Below, piece after piece: positions 33,004 through 37,674 of a stretch of 64,000 nucleotides of DNA. The translations under genes and the position numbers were made by a program. This DNA is from Edaphobacter lichenicola (GTDB lineage: Bacteria; Acidobacteriota; Terriglobia; Terriglobales; Acidobacteriaceae), in assembly GCF_025264645.1 (NCBI RefSeq), contig NZ_CP073696.1, forward strand, positions 434,001 through 498,000, given 5' to 3'. Under the pieces are notes generated by a model. That model was not told where the DNA came from and made no database searches. It saw only the letters and a list, made by a program, of their open reading frames with translations. Within the stretch, counting starts at the first letter, position 1. Every line of letters starts with the position of its first letter.

Positions 33004-33061
33004 TGTTGAAGGCTATATGTAAAATGTTCTACTCTTCAACACACAGATTGGATAACCTCCC

Positions 33062-35065
33062 TTGAATAAATATCTCCGGCTCCCTAGTAAGTTAATTCTT
33101 CTCCTCGCTTTATTCTCCCTTCAGGCGTTTGCCACGGCCAACTGGTTGCCTTTTGGACCGGATGGCGGGGATGCTCGAGCCTTCGTCGTCGATCCTCACA
33201 ATCACTCGCACCTCTACCTGGGTTCCGCAACCGGGTGGATGTATGAGTCGCAAAATGGGGGTAGTGATTGGAAGCGTTTGGCGTGGATCGGCAAGCGCGA
33301 TGACCTGGTGCTGGATTCGATCGTGCTCAACAGCACGGATACGAAGCGCATTTTGGTTGGGGCCTGGGTTTTGGGCAGTCCCGATGGTGGCATCTTCCTC
33401 AGCAAAGACGGGGGCTTAAGCTGGGAGAATGAAGTGGATATGCATGGGCAGTCCATTCGCGCTCTTACCTCTGCGCCATCGAATCCCAATATTGTCGTGG
33501 CAGGTACGCTTAAGGGGGTCTACCGGTCGACCGATGGAGGGGAACACTGGCAGCTCATCAGCCCTGAGGGAAGCCACGAGTTGCATGAGGTCGAGTCGAT
33601 TGCAATCGATCCGGTGGATCCTCAGATCATTTACGCGGGCACATGGCACCTGCCATGGAAGACGGTTGATGGCGGTCAGCACTGGACCAACATGAAAGAG
33701 GGCATCATCGAAGACTCTGATGTGTTTTCAATCATCGTAGACCCTAAAGATCCGAAGACCGTTTATGCGAGCGCCTGCTCGGGAATCTACAAGAGCCAGA
33801 CCGCGGGCGAGAAGTTCCAAAAAATTCAGGGGATTCCGTCAACGGCACGAAGGACCAGGGTTTTGATGCAGGATCCGAAGAATTTGAATATTGTTTTTGC
33901 CGGAACAACGGAAGGTTTGTGGCGTACCGTCGATTCGGGCGCGACGTGGCAGCGTACGACTGGTCCCGAGGTGATCATCAACGATGTGTTCGTTGATCCG
34001 ACCAACACCAGTCGAGTTATGCTCGCGACAGATCGCGGAGGCGTCCTGGTGAGCAACGATGGTGGCAATTCGTTTGCACAATCGAACAGCGGATTTTCGG
34101 CACGAGAGATTACGTCCTATGTGGCGGACGCTTCTAATCCCCAGACTGTCTACGTGGGAGTCGTGAACGATAAGGCGCTGGGTGGGGTATTCGCCAGCAC
34201 GAATGGCGGGTTAAATTGGACCCAGAAGAGTGCGGGATTAGAGGGCCACGATGTGGTCAGTCTTGGGCAGGGAGCGGACGGGAGTCTAGTGGCAGGCACG
34301 CGACATGGTATTTATCGGTTGCAGGGAGAGACGTGGAGCCGCGTGAAAGATATCACGCTCAACCCGCCGCCGGCGCCAGCGCCTCGAACAGGAAAGAAGG
34401 TTGCCGGACACGCCACTGCTCCAACAACTGTCCACAAGCCTGTTGCAAAGCCGCTCACGGACTTTCAGGCGACGATCAATGGAATCGCCCGTGGTGGAGA
34501 CACACTTTATGCTGCAACTTCGAGTGGACTTTTTCGAAGTGTTACGTCAGGTCAGAGCTGGAAAGAGGTTCCGGGTTTCGAACCAAGGAGCTGGAACTTT
34601 GTAGCCGCATCGAAGTCTACGGTGCTGGCGGCCAGTCTGAACTCTGCGTCAGTTTCTTCAGACGGCGGTGAGCAATGGACACCGGTCAAGCTACCGGAGG
34701 CTATCGACCAGGTCTCGGCTTTGGCCGTGGATGACGCAGGCGGCCTTTGGGTGGGCGGGCGACAAGGCATATTCGTCTCCGACGATAAAGGAGCTACCTG
34801 GCAGACGATCAAGAATCTTTTCCTTCGTGATGTGAACAGCATTTTTTATGATGCTGCCTCACAACGCGTCCTTATTGCAGCTGGCAGCAAAAACACGATT
34901 GCCTTTGGCGTTCATCTTCCCGATCGAACCGTACAGTACTGGAACACCGGCTGGAATCTGCGACTTGTGCGACCGATGGGGGACCATCTCGTCGGGGCGA
35001 CCTGGTTTGATGGTGTCGTGATACAGCCACGTATGGTTGATTCTAAGGAAGTGGCCAGTCATTGA
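33062..35065 (+). CDS. Secreted BNR/sortilin-type repeat protein (YCF48-like beta-propeller)
   Basis: 667 residues from TTG 33062. The start is supported by the signal sequence it creates (LRLPSKLILLLALFSLQAFATA) although no clear ribosome site is seen. At least ten repeats of the BNR/VPS10 type: DPHNHSHLYLGSATGWMYESQNGGSDW, GGIFLSKDGGLSW, GVYRSTDGGEHW, KTVDGGQHW, GIYKSQTAGEKF, GLWRTVDSGATW, GVLVSNDGGNSF, GVFASTNGGLNW, SVSSDGGEQW, GIFVSDDKGATW. These form one or two beta-propellers, probably outside the cytoplasm. No catalytic motif; the role may be binding or assembly. It lies 38 bp upstream of mqnE. Confidence 0.85.
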   Translation: MNKYLRLPSKLILLLALFSLQAFATANWLPFGPDGGDARAFVVDPHNHSHLYLGSATGWMYESQNGGSDWKRLAWIGKRDDLVLDSIVLNSTDTKRILVGAWVLGSPDGGIFLSKDGGLSWENEVDMHGQSIRALTSAPSNPNIVVAGTLKGVYRSTDGGEHWQLISPEGSHELHEVESIAIDPVDPQIIYAGTWHLPWKTVDGGQHWTNMKEGIIEDSDVFSIIVDPKDPKTVYASACSGIYKSQTAGEKFQKIQGIPSTARRTRVLMQDPKNLNIVFAGTTEGLWRTVDSGATWQRTTGPEVIINDVFVDPTNTSRVMLATDRGGVLVSNDGGNSFAQSNSGFSAREITSYVADASNPQTVYVGVVNDKALGGVFASTNGGLNWTQKSAGLEGHDVVSLGQGADGSLVAGTRHGIYRLQGETWSRVKDITLNPPPAPAPRTGKKVAGHATAPTTVHKPVAKPLTDFQATINGIARGGDTLYAATSSGLFRSVTSGQSWKEVPGFEPRSWNFVAASKSTVLAASLNSASVSSDGGEQWTPVKLPEAIDQVSALAVDDAGGLWVGGRQGIFVSDDKGATWQTIKNLFLRDVNSIFYDAASQRVLIAAGSKNTIAFGVHLPDRTVQYWNTGWNLRLVRPMGDHLVGATWFDGVVIQPRMVDSKEVASH

Positions 35066-35103: not shown

Positions 35104-36255
35104 ATGAGTTCTTTATCCGCCGCTCCACGCCCTCGCCACTCGTTCCAGACAGACGATGCTGCACTTTTGCCCATTGCGGCGAAGGTGCAACAGGGCGAGA
35201 GGCTTAGCTTTGACGATGGGGTGACGCTCTATCGGAGCGGCGATATCCTCGCAGTGGGCTGGCTGGCAAACCTTGTGCGGGAGCGTATGCACGGGGACAT
35301 CGCGTATTTCAATGTCAACCGGCATATTAACCCAACCAACGTTTGCATGGCGTCCTGCCGTTTATGCGCGTTCGGACGCAAAAAGGGAGAAGCCGGGACC
35401 TACACGATGGCGCTCGAAGAAGCTTGGGAGACGGCAGCTTCGGGGTATTCGGAGGCCGTGACCGAGTTTCATATTGTTGGCGGACTGCACCCAGATCTGC
35501 CGTTTGAATATTTCATGGATTTGGTTCGCGGGCTCAAGGTTCGTTTTCCGAAGGTTCACGTAAAGGCCTTCACCATGGTGGAGGTGGCGTTTCTGGCCAA
35601 GCGCGCGAAGATGACGATTCCGGAGACGCTTGCTCACATGAAGGCCGCAGGGGTGGATTCGATGCCAGGTGGTGGTGCAGAGATCTTTGCGGATCGGGTG
35701 CGGCATATTATCTGCGACCACAAGATTGACGGCAGTGAGTGGCTCGATACAGCGCGCATGGCGCACCAGATTGGGTTGCGGTCGAACGCGACCATGCTGT
35801 ACGGGCATGTGGAGAACGAAGAAGATCGCGTAGACCACTTGCTGAAGCTGCGTGCAGTGCAAGATGAGACTGGCGGGTTTCAGACATTTATTCCGCTATC
35901 GTTTCATCCGGATAATACGGCGTTGGCTCACATTCCAAGAGCGACTGGAATGCTGGATCTTCGGCAGATCGCTGTGGGGCGGCTGATGCTGGACAACTTT
36001 CCGCATATAAAGAGCTATTGGCAGATGGTTTCGCCGAAGATGGCACAGATCTCTCTGCGATTTGGCGCGGACGACATTGATGGAACGGTGATCGAGGAGA
36101 AGATCTACCACGATGCCGGAGCAACGACTCCGCAGGGTATGCGGCGGGCGGATCTGGTTCGGTTGATTACCGAGGCTGGCCGCGAGCCGTTTGAGCGCGA
36201 CACTATGTATCGAGCTGTGACAAGAAGCGAAGACAGCTTTACTGTTGCCGTGTAA
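35104..36255 (+). CDS. mqnE: Aminofutalosine synthase (radical SAM)
   Basis: 383 residues. Radical-SAM cluster Cys81-x3-Cys85-x2-Cys88 in NRHINPTNVCMASCRLCAFGR, a sequence specific to the MqnE/MqnC group; downstream VTEFHIVGGLHPDLPFEYF, DSMPGGGAEIF and QTFIPLSFHPDNT also fit MqnE. It joins the enolpyruvyl-benzoate product of MqnA/D to adenosine from SAM, making aminofutalosine in the alternative menaquinone pathway. No other mqn gene is in the window. A terminator follows 36 nt after the stop. Length is typical. Confidence 0.94.
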   Translation: MSSLSAAPRPRHSFQTDDAALLPIAAKVQQGERLSFDDGVTLYRSGDILAVGWLANLVRERMHGDIAYFNVNRHINPTNVCMASCRLCAFGRKKGEAGTYTMALEEAWETAASGYSEAVTEFHIVGGLHPDLPFEYFMDLVRGLKVRFPKVHVKAFTMVEVAFLAKRAKMTIPETLAHMKAAGVDSMPGGGAEIFADRVRHIICDHKIDGSEWLDTARMAHQIGLRSNATMLYGHVENEEDRVDHLLKLRAVQDETGGFQTFIPLSFHPDNTALAHIPRATGMLDLRQIAVGRLMLDNFPHIKSYWQMVSPKMAQISLRFGADDIDGTVIEEKIYHDAGATTPQGMRRADLVRLITEAGREPFERDTMYRAVTRSEDSFTVAV

Positions 36256-36326: not shown

Positions 36327-36704
36327 GCGTTTAATGATGTCGCCTTTTCTCTGGATCTACTCAGAAGGATCGAGGTATTGAGTCCCCGCAATAATTTTGT
36401 GGCCCCGTCGAACGACTGTTGGAGATTGGGAATCGTCACTTGCTTGGTTCTTAACCACCTATAGACCCTTCGTGCCGCACTACGTCATTTTTGCCTTATT
36501 GTTGGCTGAGTGGTTGAAAACTCATGGAAAAGGACGCCTTTTGCGGAGAAACGCACACGTTGTTGCCAAGAATTGCATGTGGATAGTGGAAATGTTTTTC
36601 CTCATGGGTAAACCTTTGACACGAAACCCAGAATTTTGCCACGCAATTTGAGCGGGGTTATTTGAAAACTCGGGAATTTCAGTGATTTTCTAATCTTTCG
36701 TGAA
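36327..36704. other. Gene-free stretch upstream of the PEP-CTERM gene
   Basis: About 380 bp, AT-richer than its surroundings. A GTG-started frame at 36397-36651 (84 codons) has no ribosome site or family features and I leave it out. TTGAAAACTC occurs twice (36514-36523 and 36662-36671), as a direct repeat that could be an activator site upstream of the sigma-54 promoter at 36705. Confidence 0.5.
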
Positions 36705-36721
36705 TGGCTCCCAAGTTGCAA
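36705..36721 (+). promoter_or_regulatory. Sigma-54 (-24/-12) promoter of the PEP-CTERM gene
   Basis: TGGCTCCCAAGTTGCA carries GG at 36706-36707 and GC at 36718-36719, exactly 10 nt apart, with TGGC and TTGCA matching the TGGCAC-N5-TTGCA consensus. The start codon is 38 bp further on, leaving a reasonable leader. PEP-CTERM genes are often sigma-54 dependent with the PrsR activator in other bacteria. Confidence 0.7.
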
Positions 36722-36758
36722 CAGAGAGGGTGCAGTAGATATCTCGGGGAAGGTTTTC

Positions 36759-37406
36759 ATGAAACTCAAGTTTGCATTACTTGTTCCAATTTTCTGCCTT
36801 GCAGCTAGTTCGGTTGCTGTTAAAGCGGACACGCTCACACTTAATAACGGAACGGTGAATCTCTCAGGCGGTAGTGCTGACATTTACCCGTATTCTTTCC
36901 AACTCAACACATCTTCCGGTACATCGACGGTGAACCTGATGTGCCTCAACTACAACCGTGAGATCACTGCGGGCGAGAGCTGGAGCGCCACAGAGGAGAG
37001 TATTCCGACAGGCCACTCGGCGATGGATCAAGACTATCGCGCAGATGCGATTCTCTATTCCGAAATTCTTCACCCGCAAGCGGGCGTGAGCATCAGCGAG
37101 ATTCAGTACGCAGAGTGGAGCATCTTTGATCCATCTGATCTGAATGGCAATTCGTTGTTCGACTCTACGGCTCAGATCTTGGCGAGCAATGCGCTGAAGG
37201 CCGCCGACAACCAACAGTTGATCAACTCTGGTTACTTCAATCAGTTCACTTTGTATATTCCATCCGACGATACCTCTTCGGGACCGCAGGAGTTTATTGG
37301 AACTGCGGCTACTCCAGAGCCTTCGAGTCTGTTGCTTCTTGGATCGGGACTTATAGGAATGGCCGGAATGCTTCGCCGAAAGTTAGTAACTGCACAAGTT
37401 GGGTAG
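36759..37406 (+). CDS. PEP-CTERM sorting-domain protein
   Basis: 215 residues. Signal peptide KFALLVPIFCLAASSVAVKA, then a beta-rich body (TLTLNNGTVNLSGGSADIYPYSFQLN, VNLMCLNYNREI). The C-terminal tripartite signal is ATPEPSSLLLLGSGLIGMAGMLRRKL: PEP motif, hydrophobic helix, Arg cluster. Exosortase removes this tail during surface export, linked to exopolysaccharide or biofilm formation. Neither exosortase nor PrsK/PrsR is in the window. AAGG precedes the ATG at about 9 nt. A sigma-54 promoter lies upstream and a small membrane peptide gene follows. Confidence 0.9.
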   Translation: MKLKFALLVPIFCLAASSVAVKADTLTLNNGTVNLSGGSADIYPYSFQLNTSSGTSTVNLMCLNYNREITAGESWSATEESIPTGHSAMDQDYRADAILYSEILHPQAGVSISEIQYAEWSIFDPSDLNGNSLFDSTAQILASNALKAADNQQLINSGYFNQFTLYIPSDDTSSGPQEFIGTAATPEPSSLLLLGSGLIGMAGMLRRKLVTAQVG

Positions 37407-37412
37407 CGAAGG

Positions 37413-37430
37413 TTGGTGTCGCAGTTGCTT
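37413..37430 (+). promoter_or_regulatory. Sigma-54-like promoter upstream of the 29-residue peptide gene
   Basis: TTGGTGTCGCAGTTGCTT: GG at 37415-37416 and GC at 37427-37428, exactly 10 nt apart, with TTGCT at -12. It starts 6 bp after the PEP-CTERM stop codon and is 104 bp before the peptide's start. Confidence 0.55.
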
Positions 37431-37534
37431 TTGTACAGTCGTCAGCCTGTTGCTTGATGAAGGGCAATTCCCGAAATCACGCAATGAGCCGTAAGGTTTC
37501 AGTTTGCATATTTCACTCTTGGGAAGGAGGCACT

Positions 37535-37624
37535 ATGTATCTTTTATTCGGACCAGCTATGGCTGCCGTTGTTGTCATTGGCGTAATTCAACTCCGCGAT
37601 CACTTTGTAGCCCCTGCCAAATAA
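37535..37624 (+). CDS. 29-residue single-helix membrane peptide
   Basis: ATG 37535 to TAA 37624. The sequence is MYLLFGPAMAAVVVIGVIQL followed by RDHFVAPAK. An excellent ribosome site (GGAAGGAGG, 37522-37530) lies 4 nt before the ATG. The first 20 residues form one transmembrane helix; the tail is short and mixed charge. A perfect-looking intrinsic terminator starts 23 nt after the stop, and a sigma-54-like promoter lies upstream, so this looks like a complete tiny transcription unit. No known family is recognised; it could be a regulatory or complex-stabilising membrane peptide. Its position after the PEP-CTERM gene suggests shared control. Confidence 0.7.
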   Translation: MYLLFGPAMAAVVVIGVIQLRDHFVAPAK

Positions 37625-37646
37625 TGTTGTTGGCATTATCCCCATG

Positions 37647-37674
37647 GAGGTCAGGCTGAGCCTGGCCTCTTTTT
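37647..37674 (+). terminator. Intrinsic terminator of the small peptide gene
   Basis: GAGGTCAGG (37647-37655), loop CTGAG, CCTGGCCTC (37661-37669; one G-T pair), then TTTTT. Confidence 0.9.

Follow-up and report, generated by a model that had tools for sequence, protein, structure and literature searches.

The window analysed here, meaning the whole 64 kb stretch of DNA (G000:C1:434001-498000), lies inside the 5.66 Mb single-contig genome of Edaphobacter lichenicola (G000), and contains a gene for a PEP-CTERM protein followed on the same strand by an open reading frame of just 29 codons, each of the two being preceded by a sigma-54 type promoter, P1 and P2, respectively (Table 1). A radical SAM gene is found upstream, and an MFS-type gene, named as such by eye, comes after the terminator of the small frame in convergent orientation. 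The PEP-CTERM domain exceeds the cut-offs of both the Pfam model PF07589 (20.7 bits) and the NCBIfam model TIGR02595 (16 bits), such that the surface protein gene placed behind the first promoter by an earlier sequence-only reading is borne out. The two GG-N10-GC sites which that reading described ahead of the PEP-CTERM gene and the tiny frame are likewise present, as are the frame itself, its good ribosome site and its own terminator, all three of which are conserved in 10 relatives. The comparisons below draw on a genus set of 62 genomes and, for the peptide, a family set of 300 genomes from 79 genera.

Table 1. Features of the locus, in window coordinates.
Feature	Position	Strand	Evidence or remark
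Radical SAM gene, CofH/MqnC type	35104-36255		upstream of P1
Palindromic element GTGGAAATGTTTTTCC, predicted activator site	36586..36601		17.5 bits; 119 bp before the P1 -24 box
P1, sigma-54 type promoter TGGCTCCCAAGTTGCA	36705..36720	+	score 10 of 12; start predicted near 36731
PEP-CTERM protein gene, 215 aa	36759..37406	+	PF07589 27.9 bits, TIGR02595 23.8 bits
P2, sigma-54 type promoter TGGTGTCGCAGTTGCT, without its own upstream element	37414..37429	+	score 8 of 12
Ribosome site AAGGAGG	37524..37530	+	sequence; conservation 1.00 in 10 relatives
Peptide gene, 29 codons, MYLLFGPAMAAVVVIGVIQLRDHFVAPAK	37535..37624	+	homologues in 36/62 genomes; dN/dS 0.062
Intrinsic terminator of the peptide gene	37646..37670	+	scan; fold z = -3.0; conservation 0.96

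As judged from its sequence, the 29-codon frame is a real conserved gene. The search of relatives that the sequence-only reading had called for finds homologues in 36 of the 62 genus genomes, nearly all of them 28-32 residues in length, and 13 close sequences give a dN/dS of 0.062, with pairwise differences at codon positions 1, 2 and 3 of 172, 102 and 845, respectively. Across 10 close genomes which share the PEP-CTERM neighbour, mean majority-base conservation is 0.89 in the frame and 0.96 in the terminator, dropping to 0.37 behind the latter. The frame stays open in the 5' direction as far as a TTG at 37454 (37454-37624, + strand, 56 aa), but the 29-residue form is favoured since the ribosome site is conserved and a start with M-Y is common. 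M1, Y2, P7 and I15 are invariant among 40 sequences, and F5, A11, I18, L20 and F24 are nearly so. From the central hydrophobic stretch and the polar end of LRD[QH]F type, both seen by eye, the peptide is predicted to span the membrane once as a single helix. None of the 40 members matches any NCBIfam family, and in Pfam there is no fitting family, the only match being to YldA in three of the 40 (best E 0.019).

No credible match to the peptide was found outside the genus among the 300 family genomes, a weak one in G329 (E 0.005) having been dropped as it lies within a 481-aa frame, along with matches inside long frames in G022, G017 and G008 (612-614 aa) and in G043 (336 aa). A scan of public records returned 19 named records with the peptide, all acidobacterial, with 12 bearing the label Edaphobacter or Granulicella; among plasmid records there was no match. 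Adjoining copies in twos or threes occur in five genomes, and scattered copies in G354 and G035, of which the two in G035 (E 4e-5 and 2e-4) are counted here, divergent as they are and lacking the combination of element and promoter described below. In one further arrangement (G026:C1:1437000-1453000), three PEP-CTERM genes stand between one copy of the peptide gene and two more, a layout that looks like the duplication of units made up of both kinds of gene.

Lone -24/-12 sites are weak evidence of a promoter: the window has nine occurrences of the pattern TGGN8TTGCW where 4.05 would be expected, nine being reached by three of 100 shuffles, and the genome-wide core TTGGCN7TTGCA is not enriched (19 sites, with 15 for the reversed control). 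The case for the promoters rests on their conservation. Within 20-280 bp upstream of 45 peptide frames, a count that takes in a third, divergent copy in G354 which is absent from the alignment A3 and from the composite test below, a site scoring at least 9 of 12 precedes 22 (2.7 expected from shuffles) and one scoring at least 10 precedes 10 (0.43 expected), the reverse-strand control giving four and none, respectively. The second peptide copies of G015, G013 and G024 have no -24/-12 site of their own. A site orthologous to P1 precedes the PEP-CTERM gene in relatives. P2 is likely to be functional, since among the 10 relatives its boxes are conserved at 0.89 as against 0.68 for the leader, the few bases before P2 standing at 0.50. 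For the PEP-CTERM genes of G000 at large, a site scoring at least 9 is found at six of 22 starts in a first start set and at four of 22 with automatic starts, the latter not differing significantly from the six of 88 control genes (p 0.11); two of the automatic starts were probably called too late, and the composite test given below is the better one. Two other sites of this type were observed. One, TGGCAATTCGTTTGCA at 34063-34078 (+), lies within a 667-aa frame (33062-35065) and is identical in its letters to the peptide promoter of G321; it has no strong upstream element and is probably due to chance. The other, TGGCACGCAGCTTGCA, stands with full score before the peptide genes of G364 and G362, at another chromosomal place and without a strong element, such that these two genes are perhaps under another activator.

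The palindromic upstream element is new here. For 32 non-redundant promoters of peptide and PEP-CTERM genes (41 collected), a motif search of the 215 bp ahead of each -24 box gave one palindrome, with a consensus of about GKRAAA-N3-TTTSCC, situated mostly 110-135 bp ahead of the -24 box. Its likelihood of 153, as compared with 51-59 in four shuffled sets, is somewhat flattered because the shuffled sets received fewer starts and rounds, and the matrix and composite tests which follow are independent of this gap. The training set of the matrix consisted of 18 peptide promoters from other genomes, all of them lacking a PEP-CTERM gene in the 1.5 kb upstream, and the matrix gives the element before P1 17.5 bits (18.0 bits with the background of the composite test). 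When applied to held-out PEP-CTERM promoters it finds the element at 11 bits or above in seven of 11, P1 among them, with the other four scoring 4.2 to 9.4; among 2340 random windows, 2.4% reach the same threshold. Under a more stringent control, in which the 270 bp ahead of ordinary genes were scored, 10 of 88 reach 11 bits, from which it is evident that the element alone is not specific; it is the pair of element and promoter, hereafter the composite, that is.

The composite test covered 38 of the 39 peptide loci fetched, and found a composite within 1.6 kb upstream in 32 of the 38, as against two in the 372 kb of sequence elsewhere in the same loci; half of these 32 loci lie outside the training set, most of the 16 being orthologous and from one clade. 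On both strands of the window there is exactly one composite, that at P1. In 14 of the 38 loci the 1.5 kb upstream of the peptide contain a PEP-CTERM gene, one of the 14 (G362) being doubtful, and in 13 of them the composite is placed ahead of the PEP-CTERM gene. In the remaining 24 loci a composite is found in 19, its distance from the first peptide frame downstream being 61 to 575 bp, leaving six of the 38 loci with none. Adjacency to a PEP-CTERM gene is not, then, the rule. G000 has 22 PEP-CTERM genes over the family cut-off, one of 23 matches, in a 906-aa frame, having been excluded, and four carry the composite (none at 23 loci on the opposite strand), such that, with 18 of the 22 lacking it, the switch would govern a minority of these genes. 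In the peptide-free G012, the composite is at the same place, ahead of a PEP-CTERM gene. Three of the 19 genome-wide promoter cores have an element of at least 11 bits, the genes behind them being two of PEP-CTERM type and one that is OmpA-like. The latter (G000:C1:2100177, minus strand) is a 255-aa frame, judged OmpA-like by eye, whose sigma-54 core is accompanied at -136 by an element scoring 13.3 bits; it is a possible further target of the same activator.

As to what that activator might be, the genome of the window has an exosortase (PF09721, 261 bits; TIGR02602, 198 bits against a cut-off of 105.55), near which are found EpsI over its cut-off, PrsT (TIGR02917, 352.9 bits against 312.2), exopolysaccharide-type genes recognised by eye, and a 363-aa sigma-54 activator with an AAA+ domain (PF00158), a Fis-type HTH (PF02954) and no receiver domain listed. 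This receiver-less protein is the best candidate for the regulator. It is present in 41 of the 62 genomes at 82-100% identity, in 39 of the 41 within 40 kb of the exosortase, and is almost confined to the genus, with one further genus (71-72% identity) among 200 family genomes. It accompanies the peptide closely: the activator is found in 35 of the 36 genomes with the peptide and in six of the 26 others, 20 of the 21 activator-free genomes being also peptide-free (Fisher p 4.5e-10, descent ignored). The association persists, again with descent ignored, in the 47 genomes of at least 95% completeness (31/4/0/12, p 3.5e-8) and in the 50 with a long-type exosortase (35/6/1/8, p 4e-5). The peptide itself is in none of the 12 genomes without a long-type exosortase (p 4.5e-6) and in none of the nine without any exosortase match (p 1.5e-4), with descent likewise ignored. 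On a 29-row tree, built from one protein and poorly supported, the peptide requires four changes, three of them forced by firm branches, and clusters weakly, 37 of 500 shuffles being as low. Many of the genus genomes have a second, longer type of exosortase (in G000 at G000:C1:3509659-3510462, 574-aa frame, 126 bits); those with only this second type, G295, G006 and the fragmentary G356, are peptide-free.

Relatives without the peptide frame, which the sequence-only reading had named as a sign against itself, do exist: 26 of the 62 genomes have no match. Of the 16 peptide-free genomes with completeness of at least 95%, however, 12 also have no activator gene. For 16 of the 26 peptide-free genomes, the frames listed for the 1.5 kb behind mqnE include none that fits the family pattern, and wider stretches from four of those 16 contained no such frame either.

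The element and promoter being common to both kinds of gene, the PEP-CTERM gene and the peptide gene probably answer to one activator. The reading favoured here, to which a probability of about two in three may be given, is that one sigma-54 promoter with its palindrome heads both genes, that the exosortase-linked activator likely switches both on, and that the peptide is an accessory. In such a scheme the activator, in response to some cue, would bind the palindrome some 120 bp upstream and set sigma-54 polymerase going at P1, and the RNA made from there would span the PEP-CTERM gene and continue into the peptide gene, given that the scan lists no terminator between 37406 and 37535. P2 would supply a second start for the peptide. 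No element accompanies P2 within 215 bp (best -3.7 bits), and the full switch is at P1 only; P2 may thus be auxiliary and minor, or may be served by the element of P1 from about 0.8 kb away. In relatives that do not have the PEP-CTERM gene it is the peptide gene that this switch heads. The peptide and some of the surface proteins would in this way be produced together, and the peptide would reside in the inner membrane and there assist the exosortase/exopolysaccharide apparatus as a small accessory; the role preferred here is that it would modulate an inner-membrane component such as the exosortase. It is co-regulation and co-occurrence, and these two alone, that suggest this role. Of the earlier proposal that the peptide is a co-regulated element of the surface-display system, what stands is that the gene is real and conserved and has a promoter type and upstream element in common with PEP-CTERM genes, which makes such a co-regulated element the best reading; what changes is the regulator, for which the receiver-less activator fits better than PrsR as defined by TIGR02915, and the adjacency to PEP-CTERM genes, which is not regular.

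An alternative which is unlikely, yet survives best, is that the peptide has its control in common with the PEP-CTERM gene and its function in another place, for instance as a small subunit of a respiratory or transport complex, its tie to the exosortase being an accident of regulation and descent. The scarcity of PEP-CTERM genes ahead of the peptide (14 of 38 loci), the loci at other genome places without a PEP-CTERM gene nearby (G013, G015, G007) and the weak clustering of the peptide on the 29-row tree are what such a function would lead one to expect. It accounts less well for the co-occurrence with an exosortase-linked activator (35/6/1/20) and for the absence of the peptide from all 12 genomes without a long-type exosortase. 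Six genomes have the activator and no peptide.

Among known systems the proteobacterial PEP-CTERM regulon comes closest. The available text of Haft et al. 2006 (PMC1569441) describes PEP-CTERM genes of Proteobacteria as being preceded by a sigma-54 site and an activator box, together with PrsK, PrsR and PrsT, reports that within its set the motifs are shared by Proteobacteria only, and anticipates that further regulators and DNA motifs await discovery, both in that phylum and beyond it. By comparison with that regulon, so far as this text describes it, the Edaphobacter locus has the same sigma-54 site and predicted upstream activator box at a PEP-CTERM gene, and the genome has the exosortase, EpsI and PrsT. 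It differs in its receiver-less activator, in having a microprotein among the targets, and in the box itself, which in the proteobacterial case ends in TTTACA at 32-92 bases before the promoter motif and here is an AAA-N3-TTT palindrome at a longer distance. As for PrsR, which the sequence-only reading had cited from other phyla, no genome of the 62 exceeds the cut-off of its curated model TIGR02915 (best 426.2 against 502.6 bits). The Edaphobacter case works like the system of Haft et al. but fails on two of its defining features that were tested, PrsR and the TTTACA box. That a diverged pair of PrsR and PrsK nonetheless acts as the regulator, in place of the receiver-less activator, is somewhat less likely again than a function elsewhere. 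NtrC-type relatives of TIGR02915 occur in all 62 genomes and PrsT is over its cut-off in G000, as this alternative would have it; these relatives, however, are present whether or not the genome bears the peptide, none reaches the PrsR cut-off, and TTTACA is absent from both strands around P1 (window positions 33023 to 53244). The candidate itself resembles in architecture receiver-less activators such as PspF, having the same AAA+ and Fis-type HTH domains and no receiver listed, but it scores 246.6 bits with TIGR02974, below the cut-off of 443.55, and is encoded near exosortase and exopolysaccharide-type genes. A PEP-CTERM gene with -24/-12 motifs is also known in pepA of Aquincola tertiaricarbonis (PMC9850573), where, according to the available text, primer extension together with an rpoN1 mutant established the dependence on RpoN1; Aquincola is a proteobacterium and no small peptide is noted in that text, whereas the Edaphobacter case is known from sequence alone. 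A literature search, most subscription journals lying outside its scope, returned no paper on the regulation of PEP-CTERM genes in Acidobacteria.

Far less probable is a type I toxin-like membrane peptide silenced by an antisense RNA, as with TisB or Ldr. The length, the one hydrophobic stretch, the clustering of two or three copies seen in five genomes and the leader of about 100 bases are all reminiscent of such toxins, yet a sigma-70-like promoter is absent from both strands between 36300 and 37900, there is no Rfam match, purifying selection is strong and includes the polar end, and the predicted sigma-54 control is shared with surface proteins. An untranslated frame, with the conserved unit being a small RNA, can practically be dismissed, for the strong terminator and conserved start region that it would explain are outweighed by the codon-position differences and dN/dS given above, a fully conserved ribosome site and, once more, no Rfam match.

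The overall picture is of a peptide which is likely a tiny part of the exosortase surface-display system of the Edaphobacter group. A bolder version, to be held tentatively and with the odds somewhat against it, is that this is the first microprotein of an exosortase system, a single helix of 28-32 residues which would bind and tune the exosortase or its exopolysaccharide partner and be produced on demand, with the dedicated sigma-54 activator and its palindrome being an acidobacterial counterpart of PrsR and its box. What is provided is a testable set within one genus of the Acidobacteriota, comprising one element, one candidate activator and common targets that include a microprotein small enough for gene finders to miss, and with it a starting point for learning how surface sorting is turned on and perhaps also which factors help the exosortase.
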